A stretch of DNA of 64,000 bases from Rhizobacter sp. SG703 (GTDB lineage: Bacteria > Pseudomonadota > Gammaproteobacteria > Burkholderiales > Burkholderiaceae_C): assembly GCF_012275445.1 (NCBI RefSeq), contig NZ_JAAZQK010000002.1, positions 248,001 through 312,000 of the forward strand, given 5' to 3'. Each line of letters begins with the position of its first letter. Position 1 is the first letter of the stretch. Position numbers and translations under genes: made by a program. Below are positions 5,648 to 45,742 of this stretch, in pieces. The notes under the pieces are model-generated. The model searched no databases. It was not told the DNA's origin and saw only the letters and a program-made list of their open reading frames with translations.

Positions 5648-6522
5648 GCCGCGTGCCGCCCGGCGTAATCCTTCGCGAACTGGAACGCGACGCGCCCGGA
5701 GCGCGACCCGCGCTCGAGCGCCCACACCAGCGAAGGCTGCCGTGCCGCGGCGATCTCGTCTTCGCCGACGCCGAAGCCGCGCAGCCACTGCGCGACGATC
5801 GCGAGGTATTCGTCCTGGCTGAACGGATAGAAGCTGACCCACAGCCCGAAGCGTTCGCTGAGCGAGATCTTCTCTTCGATCACCTCGCCGGGGTGCACCT
5901 CGCCGTCATCGGTGTGCTGGTACGTGAGGTTCTCCTTCATGTACTCGGGCAGCAGGTGGCGGCGGTTGCTGGTCGCGTAGATCAGCAGGTTGTCGGACGC
6001 CTGCGAGACCGAGCCGTCGAGGATGGACTTGAGCGCCTTGTAGCCGGGCTCGCCTTCGTCGAAACTGAGGTCGTCGCAGAACACGACGAAGCGCTCGGGC
6101 CGCTCGGCGACCAGGTCGACGATGTCGGGCAGGTCGACCAGGTCGGCCTTGTCGACCTCGATCAGGCGGAGTCCGCGATCGGAAAATTCGTTCAGGCAGG
6201 CCTTGATCAGCGAGCTCTTGCCGGTGCCGCGCGCGCCGGTCAGCAGCACGTTGTTGGCGGCATGCCCGGCCACGAACTGCGCGGTGTTGCGCAGCAGCCG
6301 CTCCTTCTGCGGTTCGACCTCGACCAGCTCCGACAAGCGCACCTGCGCCACATGCCGAACCGGCAGCAGCTGCCCGGAGGCGCCGCGCCGGCGGTAGCGG
6401 AACGCGATCGACGCCGACCAGTCGGGTGCGACCAGCGGCTGCGGCAGCACCGCTTCCAACCGGGTGAGCAACGCATCGGCGCGTTGAATCAATTGCAGCA
6501 ACGTGTCGGGAGCGAAAGACAT
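5644..6522 (-). CDS. DUF815-family AAA ATPase
   Basis: This cytoplasmic P-loop ATPase has 292 residues. Walker A is GARGTGKSS (about 96-104) and Walker B is FVVFCDD (about 145-151), followed by a sensor-like TSN (about 184). The family is widespread, its cellular role is undefined, and it looks like a regulatory AAA protein. It is the first gene of the tightly overlapping minus-strand run that leads to tatC. The 140-base gap upstream separates it from the GGDEF gene and presumably holds the promoter, but I see no clear -35/-10 pair. Confidence 0.9.
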   Translation of the reverse strand: MSFAPDTLLQLIQRADALLTRLEAVLPQPLVAPDWSASIAFRYRRRGASGQLLPVRHVAQVRLSELVEVEPQKERLLRNTAQFVAGHAANNVLLTGARGTGKSSLIKACLNEFSDRGLRLIEVDKADLVDLPDIVDLVAERPERFVVFCDDLSFDEGEPGYKALKSILDGSVSQASDNLLIYATSNRRHLLPEYMKENLTYQHTDDGEVHPGEVIEEKISLSERFGLWVSFYPFSQDEYLAIVAQWLRGFGVGEDEIAAARQPSLVWALERGSRSGRVAFQFAKDYAGRHAA

Positions 6523-12025: not shown

Positions 12026-14202
12026 CGTGCCACTCCCTTCCAGCGCCGCAACAGCAGCGCATTGCCGACCACGCTGACGCTGCTGAACGCCATCGCCGCA
12101 CCGGCGATCACCGGGTTCAGCAGCCCGAAGGCGGCCAGCGGGATGCCGACCACGTTGTAGATGAAGGCCCAGAACAGGTTCTGGCGGATCTTGCGTTGCG
12201 TCAGCCGCGCGATCTCGAGCGCATCGGCGACCAGGCGCGCATCGCCGCGCATCAGCGTGATGCCGGCCGCCTGCATCGCGACGTCGGTGCCGCTGCCCAT
12301 CGCGATGCCGACGTCGGCCGCCGCCAGCGCCGGCGCGTCGTTGATGCCGTCGCCGATCATCGCGACGCGCGCGCCGCCGCGGCGCAGCGCCTCGACCAGC
12401 GCGGCCTTGTCCTGCGGCAGCAGCGCGGCATGCACGTCGGCCGCGTCGACGCCGAGTTCGCGCGCCAGCTTCGCCGCCGCGCCGGCGCTGTCGCCGGTCA
12501 GCATCAGGCAGCGTACGCCCAGCGATTGCAGCCGGCGCACCGCCTCCGCCGCGCTCGGCTTCGCGGCATCGCCGAACGCCAGCAGGCCGCGCAGCCGCGG
12601 CACCGGCGCGGCCTCGGCCAGCCACGAGACAGTGCGGCCATCGAGCTGCAGCGCATCGGCCCGGGCCTGCAGCGGCGAGACGTCGATGCCGCGCTCGCCC
12701 ATGAAGCGGCTGCTGCCGAGCAGCAGCGTGCGCCCGCCGACCTCGCCCGACAGCCCGCGGCCGGCGACGCTGCGCACGCCGCTCGCCGGCGCGATGGCCA
12801 GCCCGTCGTGACGCGCTGCCGCGAGCACGGCCGCCGCCAGCGTGTGCTCGCTGCCAGCCTGCAGCGCCGCGCTGTCGGCGAGCAGTGCGCGCGCATCGCC
12901 ATCGGCCGGCTCGCAGGCCACCAGCGCCGGGCGGCCTTCGGTCAACGTGCCGGTCTTGTCGAACGCGACGATGTCGACCTGGCGCGCGCGCTCCAGCGCC
13001 TCGGCATCCTTGATCAGGATGCCGCGCCTTGCCGCGACGCCGGTGCCGGCCATCAACGCGGCCGGCGTCGCGAGGCCGAGCGCGCACGGGCAGGCGATCA
13101 CCAACACCGCGACGGCGTTCAGCACCGCCTGCTCCCACGCCCCGGTGGCCACGCCCCAGCCGAGCAGCGTGGCGGCCGCCAGCAGCAGCACCACCGGCAC
13201 GAACACCGCGCTGACGCGGTCGACCAGCTGCTGGATCGGCGCCTTCTTCGCCTGCGCCGATTCGACCAGGTGGACGATGCGCGACAACGCCGATTCGGCA
13301 CCGAGCGTGGTCGCCCGCAGCAGCAGCAGGCCTTCGCCGTTGACCGACCCGCCGATCACCCGGCCGCCCGGCTGGCGCAGCACCGGCAGGCCCTCGCCGG
13401 TGATCAGCGATTCGTCGACATGGCTCTCGCCTTCGAGCAGCTCGCCGTCGACCGGCAGGCGCTCGCCGGCCCGCACGACGACCAGGTCGCCGACCCGCAG
13501 CTGCGCGATCGGCAGGTCGCGTTCGATGCCATCGCGCCGCACCCGCGCCGTCTGCGGCCGCAGCGCGTTCAAGGCCTGGATCGCATCGGTGGCCTGCCGC
13601 TTGGCGCGCTGCTCCAGCCACTTGCCGAGCAGCACCAGCGTGACCACCACCGCCGACGCCTCGAAATACAAGTGCCCGTGGCCGCCATGGACCCACAGCT
13701 GCTGCACGCTGAGGCCGAACGCCGCCGAGGTGCCGAGCGCCACCAGCAGGTCCATGTTGCCGGTGCGCGCGCGCAGTGCCTTCCAGCCGGCGCGGTAGAA
13801 GCGCGCGCCGAGCACGAACTGCACCGGCGCGGCCAGCAGCAGCTGCAGCAGGCCGGGCAGCATCGCGTCGATGCCGGCGAGCGACAGCAGCATCGGGAGC
13901 ACCAGCGGCAGCGACAGCGCGGCCGCCGCGATGACCGGCCAGGCCGGCGCCGCCGCGGCCGGCGCTTCGTCTTCCTCGTGCACATGGGCCGCGTAGCCCG
14001 CCTTCTCGACCGCCGCCAGCAGCACCGCTGCATCGTCGACGCTGGTCTGCACCTCGGCGCGCTCGGTCGCCAGGTTGACGGTGGCCGACACGACGCCGGG
14101 CACGCGCTGCAGCGCCTTCTCGACACGCGCGACGCAGGACGCGCAGGTCATGCCGTCGATGCCGAGGGACAGGGAATGGGTGGCGATGCCGGTCGTGTTC
14201 AT
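12022..14202 (-). CDS. copA: Cu(I)-exporting P1B-type ATPase
   Basis: CopA pumps Cu(I) out of the cytoplasm. The 726-residue protein has one N-terminal HMA domain with CASC (20-23), a His/Glu-rich linker (about 73-80), eight membrane segments, the actuator TGE (268-270), the transport motif CPC (371-373), the phosphorylated DKTGT (Asp415) and a C-terminal GDGIND hinge. All residues needed for Cu(I) transport are present. ATG 14202 follows a MerR-type promoter (14215-14241). It is co-directional and overlapping with cueR and divergent from the HMA chaperone at 14340. Confidence 0.97.
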
Positions 14203-38352: not shown

Positions 38353-38835
38353 TCATCCGGCAAACCACCCTGGAAACAACCACAGCGCGCCCGCCGTCAT
38401 CACCAGGTAGCGTGCGAACTTGCCGATCGCCATGAATCCGACGCAGGGCCAGAACGGCAGTTTCAGCCAACCGGCCACCGCGCACAGCGGATCGCCGACG
38501 ATCGGCAGCCACGACAGCAGGCAGGCCTTCGCGCCGAAACGTTGCAGCCAGCGCAGCACGCGCACCTCGTGCGGCTTGTGCTTCACATGCTCGTAGGCCT
38601 TCTCGGCGCCGTAGCCCATCCACCAGGTGATCGCGCCGCCCAGCGTGTTGCCGGCGGTCGCGACCAGCACCGCGGGCCAGAACATCGCGGCGTTCAGCTT
38701 GACGATGCCCAGCACCATCGGCTCGGAACCCATCGGCAGCAGCGTGGCGGAGATCAGCGCGACGACGAAGACGGAGGAGAGTCCGAATTTCGGCAGCGCC
38801 AGCAGCGCGATCAGCGGGTCGATCCATGCATCCAT
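38353..38835 (-). CDS. YqaA-like VTT/SNARE-associated membrane protein
   Basis: This 160-residue inner-membrane protein of the DedA-related YqaA group has an N-terminal helix, the loop ATLLPMGSEPMVLG (about 31-44), then VATAGNTLGGAITWWMGYGAE (about 58-78) and C-terminal helices with PIVGDPLCAVAGWLKLP. The conserved Gly/Pro pattern fits VTT-domain proteins implicated in lipid or proton homeostasis. It is divergent from dusB with the starts only 66 bases apart. Function in this group is not established. Confidence 0.86.
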   Translation of the reverse strand: MDAWIDPLIALLALPKFGLSSVFVVALISATLLPMGSEPMVLGIVKLNAAMFWPAVLVATAGNTLGGAITWWMGYGAEKAYEHVKHKPHEVRVLRWLQRFGAKACLLSWLPIVGDPLCAVAGWLKLPFWPCVGFMAIGKFARYLVMTAGALWLFPGWFAG

Positions 38836-38865
38836 CCGGCGGCATTATGCGCAGACCCCAAGGGC

Positions 38866-38871
38866 TATACT
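38866..38871 (+). promoter_or_regulatory. Probable -10 element for dusB-fis
   Basis: TATACT, 30 bases before the dusB start, is a good -10 match. The -35 region 17 bases upstream is poor (CATTAT), so an activator or an extended contact may be needed. Confidence 0.4.
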
Positions 38872-38900
38872 CTGCCTCCTTTTTTGGCACTCCCCCCACC

Positions 38901-39974
38901 ATGCCCACCGGCCCCGTCATCGGCAACATCGTGCTGCCGAACCGCTTGTTCGCCGCGCCGATGGCAGGGGTCACCGACCGGCCGTTCCGCCAGCTGTGCA
39001 AGCGGCTGGGCGCGGGCTACGCGGTGAGCGAGATGGTGACCTCGCGGCGCGAGCTGTGGAACAGCCTGAAGACCTCGCGGCGCGCCAACCACGACGGCGA
39101 GGCCGCGCCGATCGCGGTGCAGATCGCCGGCACCGAGCCAGGGATGATGGCCGAGGCCGCCGCCTACAACATCGACCGCGGCGCGCAGGTCATCGACATC
39201 AACATGGGCTGCCCGGCCAAGAAGGTCTGCACCAAGTGGGCCGGCTCGGCGCTGATGCAGGACGAGCCGCTCGCGCTCGCCATCATCGAGGCGGTGGTCG
39301 CCGCCTGCGCGCCGCGCCACGTACCGGTGACGCTGAAGATGCGCACCGGCTGGTGCCAGGCCGAGCGCAATGCACTCGCGATCGCGCGCGCCGCCGAATC
39401 GGCCGGCATCGCGATGGTGACGGTGCACGGCCGCACCCGCGAGCAGGGCTACGGCGGCCACGCCGAGTACGACACCATCGCCGCGGTGAAGGCCGCGCTG
39501 CGCATCCCGGTGGTGGCCAACGGCGACATCGACTCGCCCGAGAAGGCATGCGAGGTGCTGGCCGCGACCGGTGCCGACGCGCTGATGATCGGCCGCGCGG
39601 CGCAGGGCCGGCCGTGGATCTTCCGCGAGATCGCGCACTTCCTCGAGACCGGCGAGCACCTGCCGGCGCCCGAGGTGCTGCAGGCCAAAGGCTGGCTGCT
39701 GGAGCACCTGCACGAACACTACGGCCTCTATGGCGACTACGCCGGCGTGCGCACCGCGCGCAAGCACATCGGCTGGGCGGTGCGCGCACTGCCCGGCGGC
39801 GAGGGCTTTCGCGCCCGCATGAACACGCTGGACACCTGCGAGGAGCAGGTCCGCGCCGTGACGGACTGGTTCGATCAACTGGCCGACACGCACCATCGGC
39901 TGCCCGCGGCCCACCCCGGCGGCGCAGCCAACCACGATCAAGGGCCTGTCAACACGACGGGAAGGCTCGCGTGA
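38901..39974 (+). CDS. dusB: tRNA dihydrouridine synthase B
   Basis: DusB is a flavoenzyme that reduces specific uridines in tRNA to dihydrouridine. The 357-residue product starts at ATG 38901 (MPTGPVIGNIVLPNRLFAAP). It has the FMN-binding TIM barrel with INMGCPAKK, whose Cys is the catalytic acid, then KMRTGW, VHGRTREQGY, NGDI and GRAAQGRPW. The last ten or so residues (GPVNTTGRLA) are encoded by the left arm of a 30-bp inverted repeat. The gene's 3' end has therefore been remodelled by that element. It is upstream of fis, as in many proteobacteria. Confidence 0.95.
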   Translation: MPTGPVIGNIVLPNRLFAAPMAGVTDRPFRQLCKRLGAGYAVSEMVTSRRELWNSLKTSRRANHDGEAAPIAVQIAGTEPGMMAEAAAYNIDRGAQVIDINMGCPAKKVCTKWAGSALMQDEPLALAIIEAVVAACAPRHVPVTLKMRTGWCQAERNALAIARAAESAGIAMVTVHGRTREQGYGGHAEYDTIAAVKAALRIPVVANGDIDSPEKACEVLAATGADALMIGRAAQGRPWIFREIAHFLETGEHLPAPEVLQAKGWLLEHLHEHYGLYGDYAGVRTARKHIGWAVRALPGGEGFRARMNTLDTCEEQVRAVTDWFDQLADTHHRLPAAHPGGAANHDQGPVNTTGRLA

Positions 39975-40207
39975 CTCATCAAAAGGGCACCCGCAAGGCG
40001 CACGGCGCAGCCCAGGCTTGTTGCCTGGGCAAGCCGTGCAACGCCGCGGGTGCCCTTTTGATGAGATCACCCTTCGGGCCGGTGCCTGCCAAGGCGCTGG
40101 GCCGCGTTGCGATGCTTGCCCGGGCAGCAAGCCCGGGCCGCGCATCGCGCCTTGCCCAGCGCCTTGGCAGGCACCGGCGCGAGCCTTCCCGTCGTGTTGA
40201 CAGGCCC
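39942..40207. repeat. Nested palindromic element able to fold as a three-way junction
   Basis: Outer arms 39942-39971 and 40178-40207 are perfect 30-bp inverted repeats. They enclose two long hairpins. Hairpin 1 (39971-40070) has the arm CTCATCAAAAGGGCACCCGC and its complement near 40046-40065, with an inner stem GCCCAGGC/GCCTGGGC. Hairpin 2 (40078-40178) has a perfect 25-bp outer stem, an inner GCGATGC/GCATCGC stem and a GCCCGGGC tip around AGCAA. The element covers the dusB stop and ends 17 bases before fis. No open reading frame of note is inside and no target duplication is evident. Confidence 0.9.
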
Positions 40208-40224
40208 CTAATCGAACAACAAGC

Positions 40225-40461
40225 ATGAGCAAGAAGCACATCGAAGAATGCATCCGTGACAGCCTCGAGACCTATTTCAAGGACCTGCGCGGCGTCGAGC
40301 CGAACGCCATGTACGACATGATCCTGAAGGTCGTCGAGAAGCCGCTGCTCGACGTCGTGATGAAGCATGCCGACGGCAACCAGAGCCGGGCCGCCGAATG
40401 GCTGGGCATCAACCGCAACACGCTGCGGCGCAAGCTGCTCGACCACAAGCTCACCAAGTAA
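40225..40461 (+). CDS. fis: DNA-binding protein Fis
   Basis: Fis is a nucleoid protein that bends DNA and regulates growth-phase genes. The 78-residue product is the short beta-proteobacterial form. The C-terminal HTH (about 50-78) reads [21 protein letters not shown], and the N-terminal part with its dimer helices is slightly shortened compared with the 98-residue E. coli protein. ATG 40225 lies 17 bases after the palindromic element, so fis translation could depend on how that element folds in the dusB-fis transcript. purH follows 22 bases downstream. Confidence 0.95.
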
Positions 40462-45540: not shown

Positions 45541-45567
45541 CGCCGCGTCCGCCTTGATCGGCGGACA

Positions 45568-45733
45568 GCGTTCTCAGGGCGGGGCGGAATTCCCCACCGG
45601 CGGTATCCGTGAGCGATCACGGGAGCCCGCGAGCGCCCGTTCATGCAGTGGCCAACACCGGTGCGTGAACGGGGTCAGCAGACCTGGTGCGATGCCAGGG
45701 CCGACGGTCACAGTCCGGATGAAAGAGAAACGC
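45568..45733 (+). promoter_or_regulatory. FMN riboswitch (RFN element)
   Basis: The conserved RFN blocks are present in order: TTCTCAGGGCGGGGC with AATTCCCCACCGGCGGTAT, then AGCCCGCGAGCG, GGTCAGCAGACCTGGTG, GCCAGGGCCGACGGTCAC and AGTCCGGATGAAAGAGAA. The aptamer binds flavin mononucleotide and lowers expression of the riboflavin gene downstream. It controls the ribH gene starting at 45816. Confidence 0.96.
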
Positions 45734-45742
45734 GAGTACCAC

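Follow-up and report, generated by a model that had tools for sequence, protein, structure and literature searches.

The DNA analysed here, hereafter the window, is a stretch of 64,000 nucleotides from Rhizobacter sp. SG703 (G000). At 39942-40207, between dusB and fis, the original prediction had placed a nested 266-bp palindrome, which is borne out, with both of its hairpins, by the features of the locus:

38826..39974, forward strand: dusB frame, listed as an open reading frame from 38826; its start codon is not settled and its final codons come from the element
39939..39941, forward strand: target flank on the left, CAA, a degenerate form where YTA is usual
39942..40207, forward strand: the whole 266-bp element, apparently a non-autonomous mobile palindrome, judged from its arms, fold and further copies
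39942..39971, forward strand: left terminal inverted repeat, perfect over 30 bp, its first ~15 bp resembling the conserved end GGGCCTGTTMACACT
39972..40069, forward strand: hairpin 1, from the fold, with a perfect 20-bp stem
39988..40052, forward strand: sense copy of the core module, which the module model scores at 68.1 bits; the model's training set includes this copy
40070..40078, no strand: central CCCNNNGGG, with a tiny third stem-loop CCCTTCGGG near the centre, from fold and alignment
40079..40177, forward strand: hairpin 2, from the fold and its stem
40096..40160, reverse strand: core module, inverted copy (65.2 bits, likewise within the training set)
40178..40207, reverse strand: right terminal inverted repeat, perfect over 30 bp, complementary to the left arm
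40208..40211, forward strand: right target flank CTAA (usually TAR)
40225..40461, forward strand: fis

The arms at 39942-39971 and 40178-40207 are complementary at 30 of 30 bp. In a random 64-kb sequence of equal GC content the expected number of perfect 30-bp arms within 300 bp is about 1e-9. The stem of hairpin 1 pairs perfectly over 20 bp (39975-39994 with 40046-40065) and is lengthened by a brief TGA/TCA pairing past a single bulged A, while hairpin 2 holds the perfect 25-bp stem described earlier (40078-40102 with 40154-40178). The two long hairpins of the proposed three-way junction therefore stand, but the small stem-loop CCCTTCGGG near the centre makes the predicted fold strictly a four-way junction. 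The exceptional stability foreseen for a transcript is also found in the predicted fold: the minimum free energy of the 266-bp element as RNA is -244.6 kcal/mol, against -128.07 +/- 5.05 kcal/mol for 200 dinucleotide shuffles (z -23.08), none of which (0/200) folds as low. The open reading frames of the window include no transposase frame in the element. Against Rfam 15 the element has only sub-threshold, miRNA-like hairpin matches and no family over its gathering threshold. The one family over threshold in the window lies elsewhere, an FMN riboswitch at 45566-45735 (RF00050, 98 bits).

Between the element and the fis start codon (ATG, 40225) lie 17 nt, as had been stated, and the dusB frame enters the left arm and stops at 39972-39974, now 250 nt before fis. 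Spacing was compared across the genus: the element is absent from dusB-fis in 10/10 same-genus relatives, so that the site is occupied in one of 11 genus genomes. In seven of the ten relatives dusB and fis share an ATGA, whose TGA is the dusB stop and whose ATG starts fis; in the remaining three the dusB stop lies 31, 43 and 106 nt upstream of fis. At the fis loci of G001 (L261), G010 (L267) and G006 (L268), dusB and fis do not overlap and the gap is filled with other sequence, the element being absent. The two nearest relatives read ...GAT CTC ATC GAA..., where the window reads GAT CAA [element] CTA ATC GAA. The DusB tail QGPVNTTGRLA, the last 11 residues before the stop, is made up of the insertion point and the element and stands where these two relatives have LIEQQA or LIEQEA, which agrees with the earlier suggestion that the left arm encodes the DusB C-terminus after insertion into the gene end. 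Since dusB-fis is empty in the nearest relatives, the element arrived after the lineage split from them. From the sequences compared, the insertion evidently replaced the DusB C-terminus and destroyed the overlap of the dusB stop with the fis start. A change of CTC to CTA would be silent and would create the target; because the flanks of the window copy, CAA and CTAA, form no clean duplication, this step we infer only. An altered Fis level is a plausible result of the insertion.

The search for further copies yielded four in the Rhizobacter sp. SG703 genome itself. Besides the window copy there is one of 264 bp, and the other two, of 189 and about 100 bp, have internal deletions. By BLAST, some match to the element occurs in 6/10 same-genus relatives and in 22/60 relatives, and the full copies in relatives sit at other places, with unrelated neighbouring genes. 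The original reading as a non-autonomous mobile palindrome thus gains support from these copies and the ten empty dusB-fis sites, and also from the TA flanks at CTAG-like targets and the IS5-family ends described below. Of 250 family genomes 95 contain the end motif, as do 71 of 141 genera. Genome contigs scanned for both ends, TA and a spacing of 251-281 bp gave at least 120 stretches from records titled as Beta-, Gamma-, Alpha- and Zetaproteobacteria, Acidobacteria and one Rhodothermales; many of these records are MAGs, so isolated distant ones may be contamination. Among the matches listed (at least 120), every element differs in sequence. Lengths were counted first on 81 elements and then on all of the at least 120: among the matches listed, 114/120 measure 262-268 bp despite the allowed 251-281 bp, 86/120 are 265 or 266 bp, and CCCNNNGGG falls within the central 40 nt in 112/120. 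The element thus appears to be a member of a widespread group in which size and folded shape are nearly constant, while the letters and even the ends vary.

Departures from the common length were also seen. At L137 (G237:C277:12483-12533) lies a 47-bp remnant that has TA on each side and retains scarcely anything but the two terminal repeats. Elements of 296 and 323 bp at L053 and L054 (G015:C3 and C22) have an additional stretch within hairpin 1, with a similar GCAGGCGTAGCCTGCGCTCC sequence in both. A plasmid or phage origin was considered and set aside, as the 266-bp window element gave no blastn match there at E 1e-5.

Copies lie mostly between TA duplications at CTAG-like targets. Those found by BLAST, where TA was not required, mostly have YTA as their left flank and TAR as their right one; among the matches listed from the scan, where TA was imposed, Y stands at -3 in 117/120 and R at +3 in 115/120. 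A filled site in G002 compared with the empty site in G008 has two extra bases, TA, and two more comparisons with empty sites gave no clean two-base gain. The left TA is missing in three of the four Rhizobacter sp. SG703 copies. The conserved end GGGCCTGTTMACACT, from which the window copy deviates at two positions, is common to the element and to IS5-family insertion sequences (ISs). Such ISs, 823-827 bp long, with GGGC[C/G]TGTTAACAC ends and TA flanks, were found in G014, G116, G148 and G216, and G025 has a further paired IS with matching ends. They carry two frames that meet at a run of A and match Pfam DUF4096 and DDE_Tnp_1 as well as the NCBIfam IS5-family model; with that model's cut-off at 110 bits, the second frame piece passes at 133.1 and the first falls short at 103.7. 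The ISs and the element have the ends alone in common, the core being absent from the ISs. In G014, nine transposase matches occur together with one 264-bp element; in the same genome, an 824-bp IS copy at L119 (G014:C1:941380-943530) is split by a ~1.3-kb insertion with a long transposase-like frame on the opposite strand. The comparison indicates that the element has the ends of IS5-family insertion sequences that carry two transposase frames. The assignment to the IS427 group would follow from anatomy, namely the length, the duplication of 2 bp and the presence of two frames; NCBIfam gives just the IS5 family. A single-protein query for the IS5-type transposase, which would miss divergent transposases, had no match in the Rhizobacter sp. 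SG703 genome, none in 51/60 relatives (9/60 had matches, some weak) and none in 11 of 12 core-rich genomes.

For the analysis of the fold, 116 copies of eligible length were taken, of which 103 could be oriented and 13 were omitted; the G005 copy and every copy at least 85% identical to a retained copy were then dropped, leaving 55 copies with a mean identity of 53%. RNAalifold predicts 71 pairs from these. Standard pairs fill 93.2% of cells, against 66.3% in shuffled alignments and 36.0-42.6% when partners are slid, where the consensus structure, taken from the same alignment, has an advantage over the slid control. Two-sided compensatory changes occur at 56/71 pairs, with a covariation score of 0.651; shuffling gives 47.6 pairs and 0.160. 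Mean conservation is equal in paired and unpaired columns (0.60 and 0.62), and the six C/G positions of the central CCCNNNGGG are invariant in 55/55 aligned copies. Across the aligned copies the pairing of the core is seen to be maintained while the paired letters vary. Part of this compensatory pattern could come from homogenisation of the arms by template switching.

Hairpins 1 and 2 repeat a single ~65-nt module in inverted orientation to each other; it reads about CAAGGCGC...stem-loop...GCAACGC. The module model R1 was built from 89 of 110 modules, the other 21, including one reversed module in L178, having been omitted by hand as odd or redundant. As R1 was built from these modules, its matches in the window, with high scores at the two module sites alone, arise by construction. 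R2 gave weak matches in the window at 13065, 50419 and 43227 (18-23 bits), where the letters hold no clear module. With E <= 1e-4 as the limit, R1 has matches in 39 of 114 class-wide genomes and as many as 45 within one genome; these counts were made with the stricter filters that apply to more than 40 genomes. Among the matches listed, AAGGCGC with at most one mismatch stands 53-55 nt from the element end in 151/168 recognised ends, and it went unrecognised in 72/240 ends.

In core-rich genomes the modules occur in pairs ~102-107 nt apart (one 119), inside elements with different terminal repeats, namely GTGTCCTGTCTCCGAAG (G306), GTGTACTGCGCCGC (G365), GAACCTATCTCAGAAT (G295), GAGCCTGTCTRTGAATAAAT (G302) and GTGCTCTTTCAAGG (G345); more alternative ends come from a single locus each in G372, G374, G338, G360 and G353. 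Some of the alternative ends are faintly alike (GRRCCTRTYT), so they are not all unrelated. For the five checked end types, from G306, G365, G295, G302 and G345, full copies measure 262-266 bp, CCCNNNGGG is nearly always at the centre, and the module lies 53-55 nt from the end (62 nt at one G295 end); two G365 copies measure 190 bp. In 13 copies with alternative ends, TA occupies 21 of the 26 flanks and other letters the remaining five. Single-module forms of ~157-173 bp occur in G358, G356, G333, G380 and G289. Since the same module, CCCNNNGGG and a length of ~265 bp recur under different terminal repeats, it is the folded core and not the ends that defines the group, and the core would seem to be the constant part, with exchangeable ends.

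We regard it as quite probable that the element is a non-autonomous transposable element which inserted at dusB-fis after the split from the nearest relatives, is mobilised in trans by IS5-family transposases and has a folded core under selection. Judged from the sites and copies, it is apparently mobile and MITE-like rather than a conserved fis leader. As the ends and the target suggest, an IS5-family transposase acting in trans would recognise both ends, cut there and insert the element at C-TA-G, duplicating TA. Selection would then act on the folded core: folded or extruded DNA most likely joins in transposition, holding both ends together as a substrate of fixed size, and a compact transcript may also render insertions beside gene ends tolerable. 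At dusB-fis, the insertion would have supplied the new DusB C-terminal tail and uncoupled the stop/start overlap.

The foremost alternative is selection of the fold as RNA. However the element moves, a compact double-hairpin transcript would then stabilise, terminate or undergo ribonuclease processing at gene ends, and insertions would therefore persist chiefly downstream of genes. The very stable predicted RNA fold accords with this, and so do the neighbouring genes: the left gene points toward the element in 74 of 108 scored copies, co-directional arrangements outnumber opposite ones by 38 to 19 (p 0.016, with copies that are non-independent), and convergent ones outnumber divergent ones by 36 to 15. 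However, these counts rest on crude ORF calls for 108 of 140 copies, 32 being unscored (22 with short flanks, 10 not oriented). Mismatches of the G-T type exceed those of the A-C type overall (127 to 79 in 55 sequences) and in hairpin 1 (12 to 3 in 11 diverse representatives), which speaks for RNA, but neither type prevails in the outer stem (7 to 10) or in hairpin 2 (6 to 6). For ERIC and Correia elements, effects on mRNA stability or RNase cleavage are reported in the available excerpts of PMC2229807 and PMC10969869. On the other hand, a strand-specific RNA has no need of inverted module copies, and RNA stability alone would not lead one to expect a constant ~54-nt module-to-end distance and total size. 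The fixed size, the fixed module-to-end distance and the inverted modules, together with a balance of G-T and A-C outside hairpin 1, in the outer stem and in hairpin 2, favour a role for the fold as DNA in transposition, and we hold the selection as RNA to be possible but doubtful.

The pairing could also be kept by mutation, with template switching between the arms (quasipalindrome correction) copying arm onto arm, so that the matched arms require no function of the fold. The perfect 30-, 25- and 20-bp arms are what this process would leave, and it is, in the excerpted sources, a known mechanism of arm homogenisation. Correction should, however, erase the unpaired AA of CAAC and A's of AAGG, which are kept in 89-96% of the 55 copies; element length and module position are likewise constant. 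As the sole cause we find it unlikely; it may be a third contributor beside the DNA and RNA roles. Domestication as a regulatory element of fis or dusB in Rhizobacter sp. SG703 is suggested by the position 17 nt before fis and the loss of an overlap found in 7/10 relatives, but with the site filled in one of the 11 genus genomes and the other copies at unrelated genes we give it very little weight. Least credible, with nothing found in its favour and to our minds next to impossible, is that the structure is a conserved leader RNA, a chance palindrome or an assembly artefact. A leader, or an attenuator of fis, fails as the origin because the site is empty in relatives; chance is ruled out by the expectation of ~1e-9; and an artefact, which had been named as a possible refutation, is unlikely because full copies of near-equal length recur in many independent genomes, at least 120 of them in other records.

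The preferred reading, a trans-mobilised element with a selected folded core, places it among the miniature inverted-repeat transposable elements (MITEs). It is short (266 bp), has 30-bp repeats and no transposase gene, and is dispersed (four copies in its own genome) with a polymorphic dusB-fis site, empty in 10/10 relatives; most copies have a TA duplication, which is unclean in the window copy and in three of the four copies of its genome. The element fits the MITE definition, and what is new is the constant folded core with exchangeable ends. Bacterial MITEs are commonly viewed as decayed insertion sequences with an interior that is mere filler. In this group it is the interior that varies least in size and fold, a constancy that spans classes and, going by the record titles, phyla as well. 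REP and REPIN elements, 20-40 bp palindromes tagged GTAG or CGTC and associated with a RAYT transposase, differ from it in size. The likeness to the IS427 group of the IS5 family lies in the end sequence, the same as in the autonomous 823-827 bp elements of four genomes, and in TA at CTAG-like targets; the ISs are ~824-bp autonomous copies without the double hairpin, whereas the element has no transposase and shares only the ends. A cognate transposase in the same genome was found, with the single-protein query, in one of 12 core-rich genomes. In the accessible part of PMC3281130, IS427-group ISs are ~832-865 bp long, duplicate 2 bp (4 in one case) and have two frames that overlap, with a motif for frameshifting.

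Several described repeats share single traits with the element. According to the excerpted text of PMC2229807, RUP is mobilised in trans by a transposase that makes TA duplications, and RUP, Correia/NEMIS and other bacterial MITEs are short, with terminal inverted repeats, trans-mobilisation and stable stem-loops; they are set apart by their described ends and sizes. The CIR of Caulobacter and Brucella, described there as a pair of long inverted repeats that make up two arms with a linker between them, is alike in this two-arm layout, but by that description has a GANTC motif in the loop and no terminal pairing. BRE likewise recurs between genes in Betaproteobacteria, Polaromonas and Acidovorax among them, but measures 75-91 bp and is often tandem (PMC3110155, in the part available). 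RU-2/YPAL was rejected as a candidate, as its printed 168-bp sequence and its description, with internal repeats and variable duplications, are unlike the element. In the available portions of PMC2229807, PMC2759123, PMC10969869 and PMC3110155, none of the descriptions of ERIC, RU-2/YPAL, RUP, Correia, CIR and BRE has the size, core and ends of the element, and searches of the open-licence PMC literature showed no description of such an element.

A further comparison is with ERIC. It too is a small intergenic palindrome with a TA duplication (PMC2759123, as excerpted), and it may share the core arms, several ERIC copies having AAGGC in one arm and AACGC in the opposite one. However, at 127 bp it is about half the size and has other ends and a single hairpin with a longer tip, where our element has 266 bp and GGGCCTGT ends. 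R1 had no match in five ERIC loci; R2 had sub-threshold matches at all five (E 0.62-4.8), the best match elsewhere being at E 0.035. The similarity of the ERIC arms is weak and post hoc, with both-arm p of 0.0005-0.029 from mononucleotide shuffles, and ERIC as a possible relative is only a lead. The single-module element at L351 (G333:C88) has ends, TATACCCGT, that resemble those of ERIC, and may be a bridge between both groups.

More tentatively, and with rather less than even confidence, we propose a hitherto undescribed superfamily of mobile DNA, defined by a folded core whose geometry is fixed: in ~265 bp it has a CCCNNNGGG centre and, ~54 nt from each end, one of two ~65-nt modules inverted relative to each other, and forms of ~160 bp have a single module. 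This core, joined to at least ten terminal sequences, would be able to switch the transposase that it parasitises and would act as folded or cruciform DNA, with ERIC as a reduced cousin. If the constancy of the interior holds, such parasites own a structured core that outlasts changes of transposase, and the retention of the fold in ERIC-like elements becomes testable through mutation of the core. Locally, the lesson is that an insertion can rewrite a gene end and uncouple dusB from fis. The module model also provides a search tool for the annotation of unexplained intergenic repeats in Pseudomonadota. Finally, at L367 (G348:C76) two module pairs in opposite orientation, at 984-1204 and 6023-6243, lie ~4.8 kb apart on one contig and resemble a composite transposon bounded by two elements.
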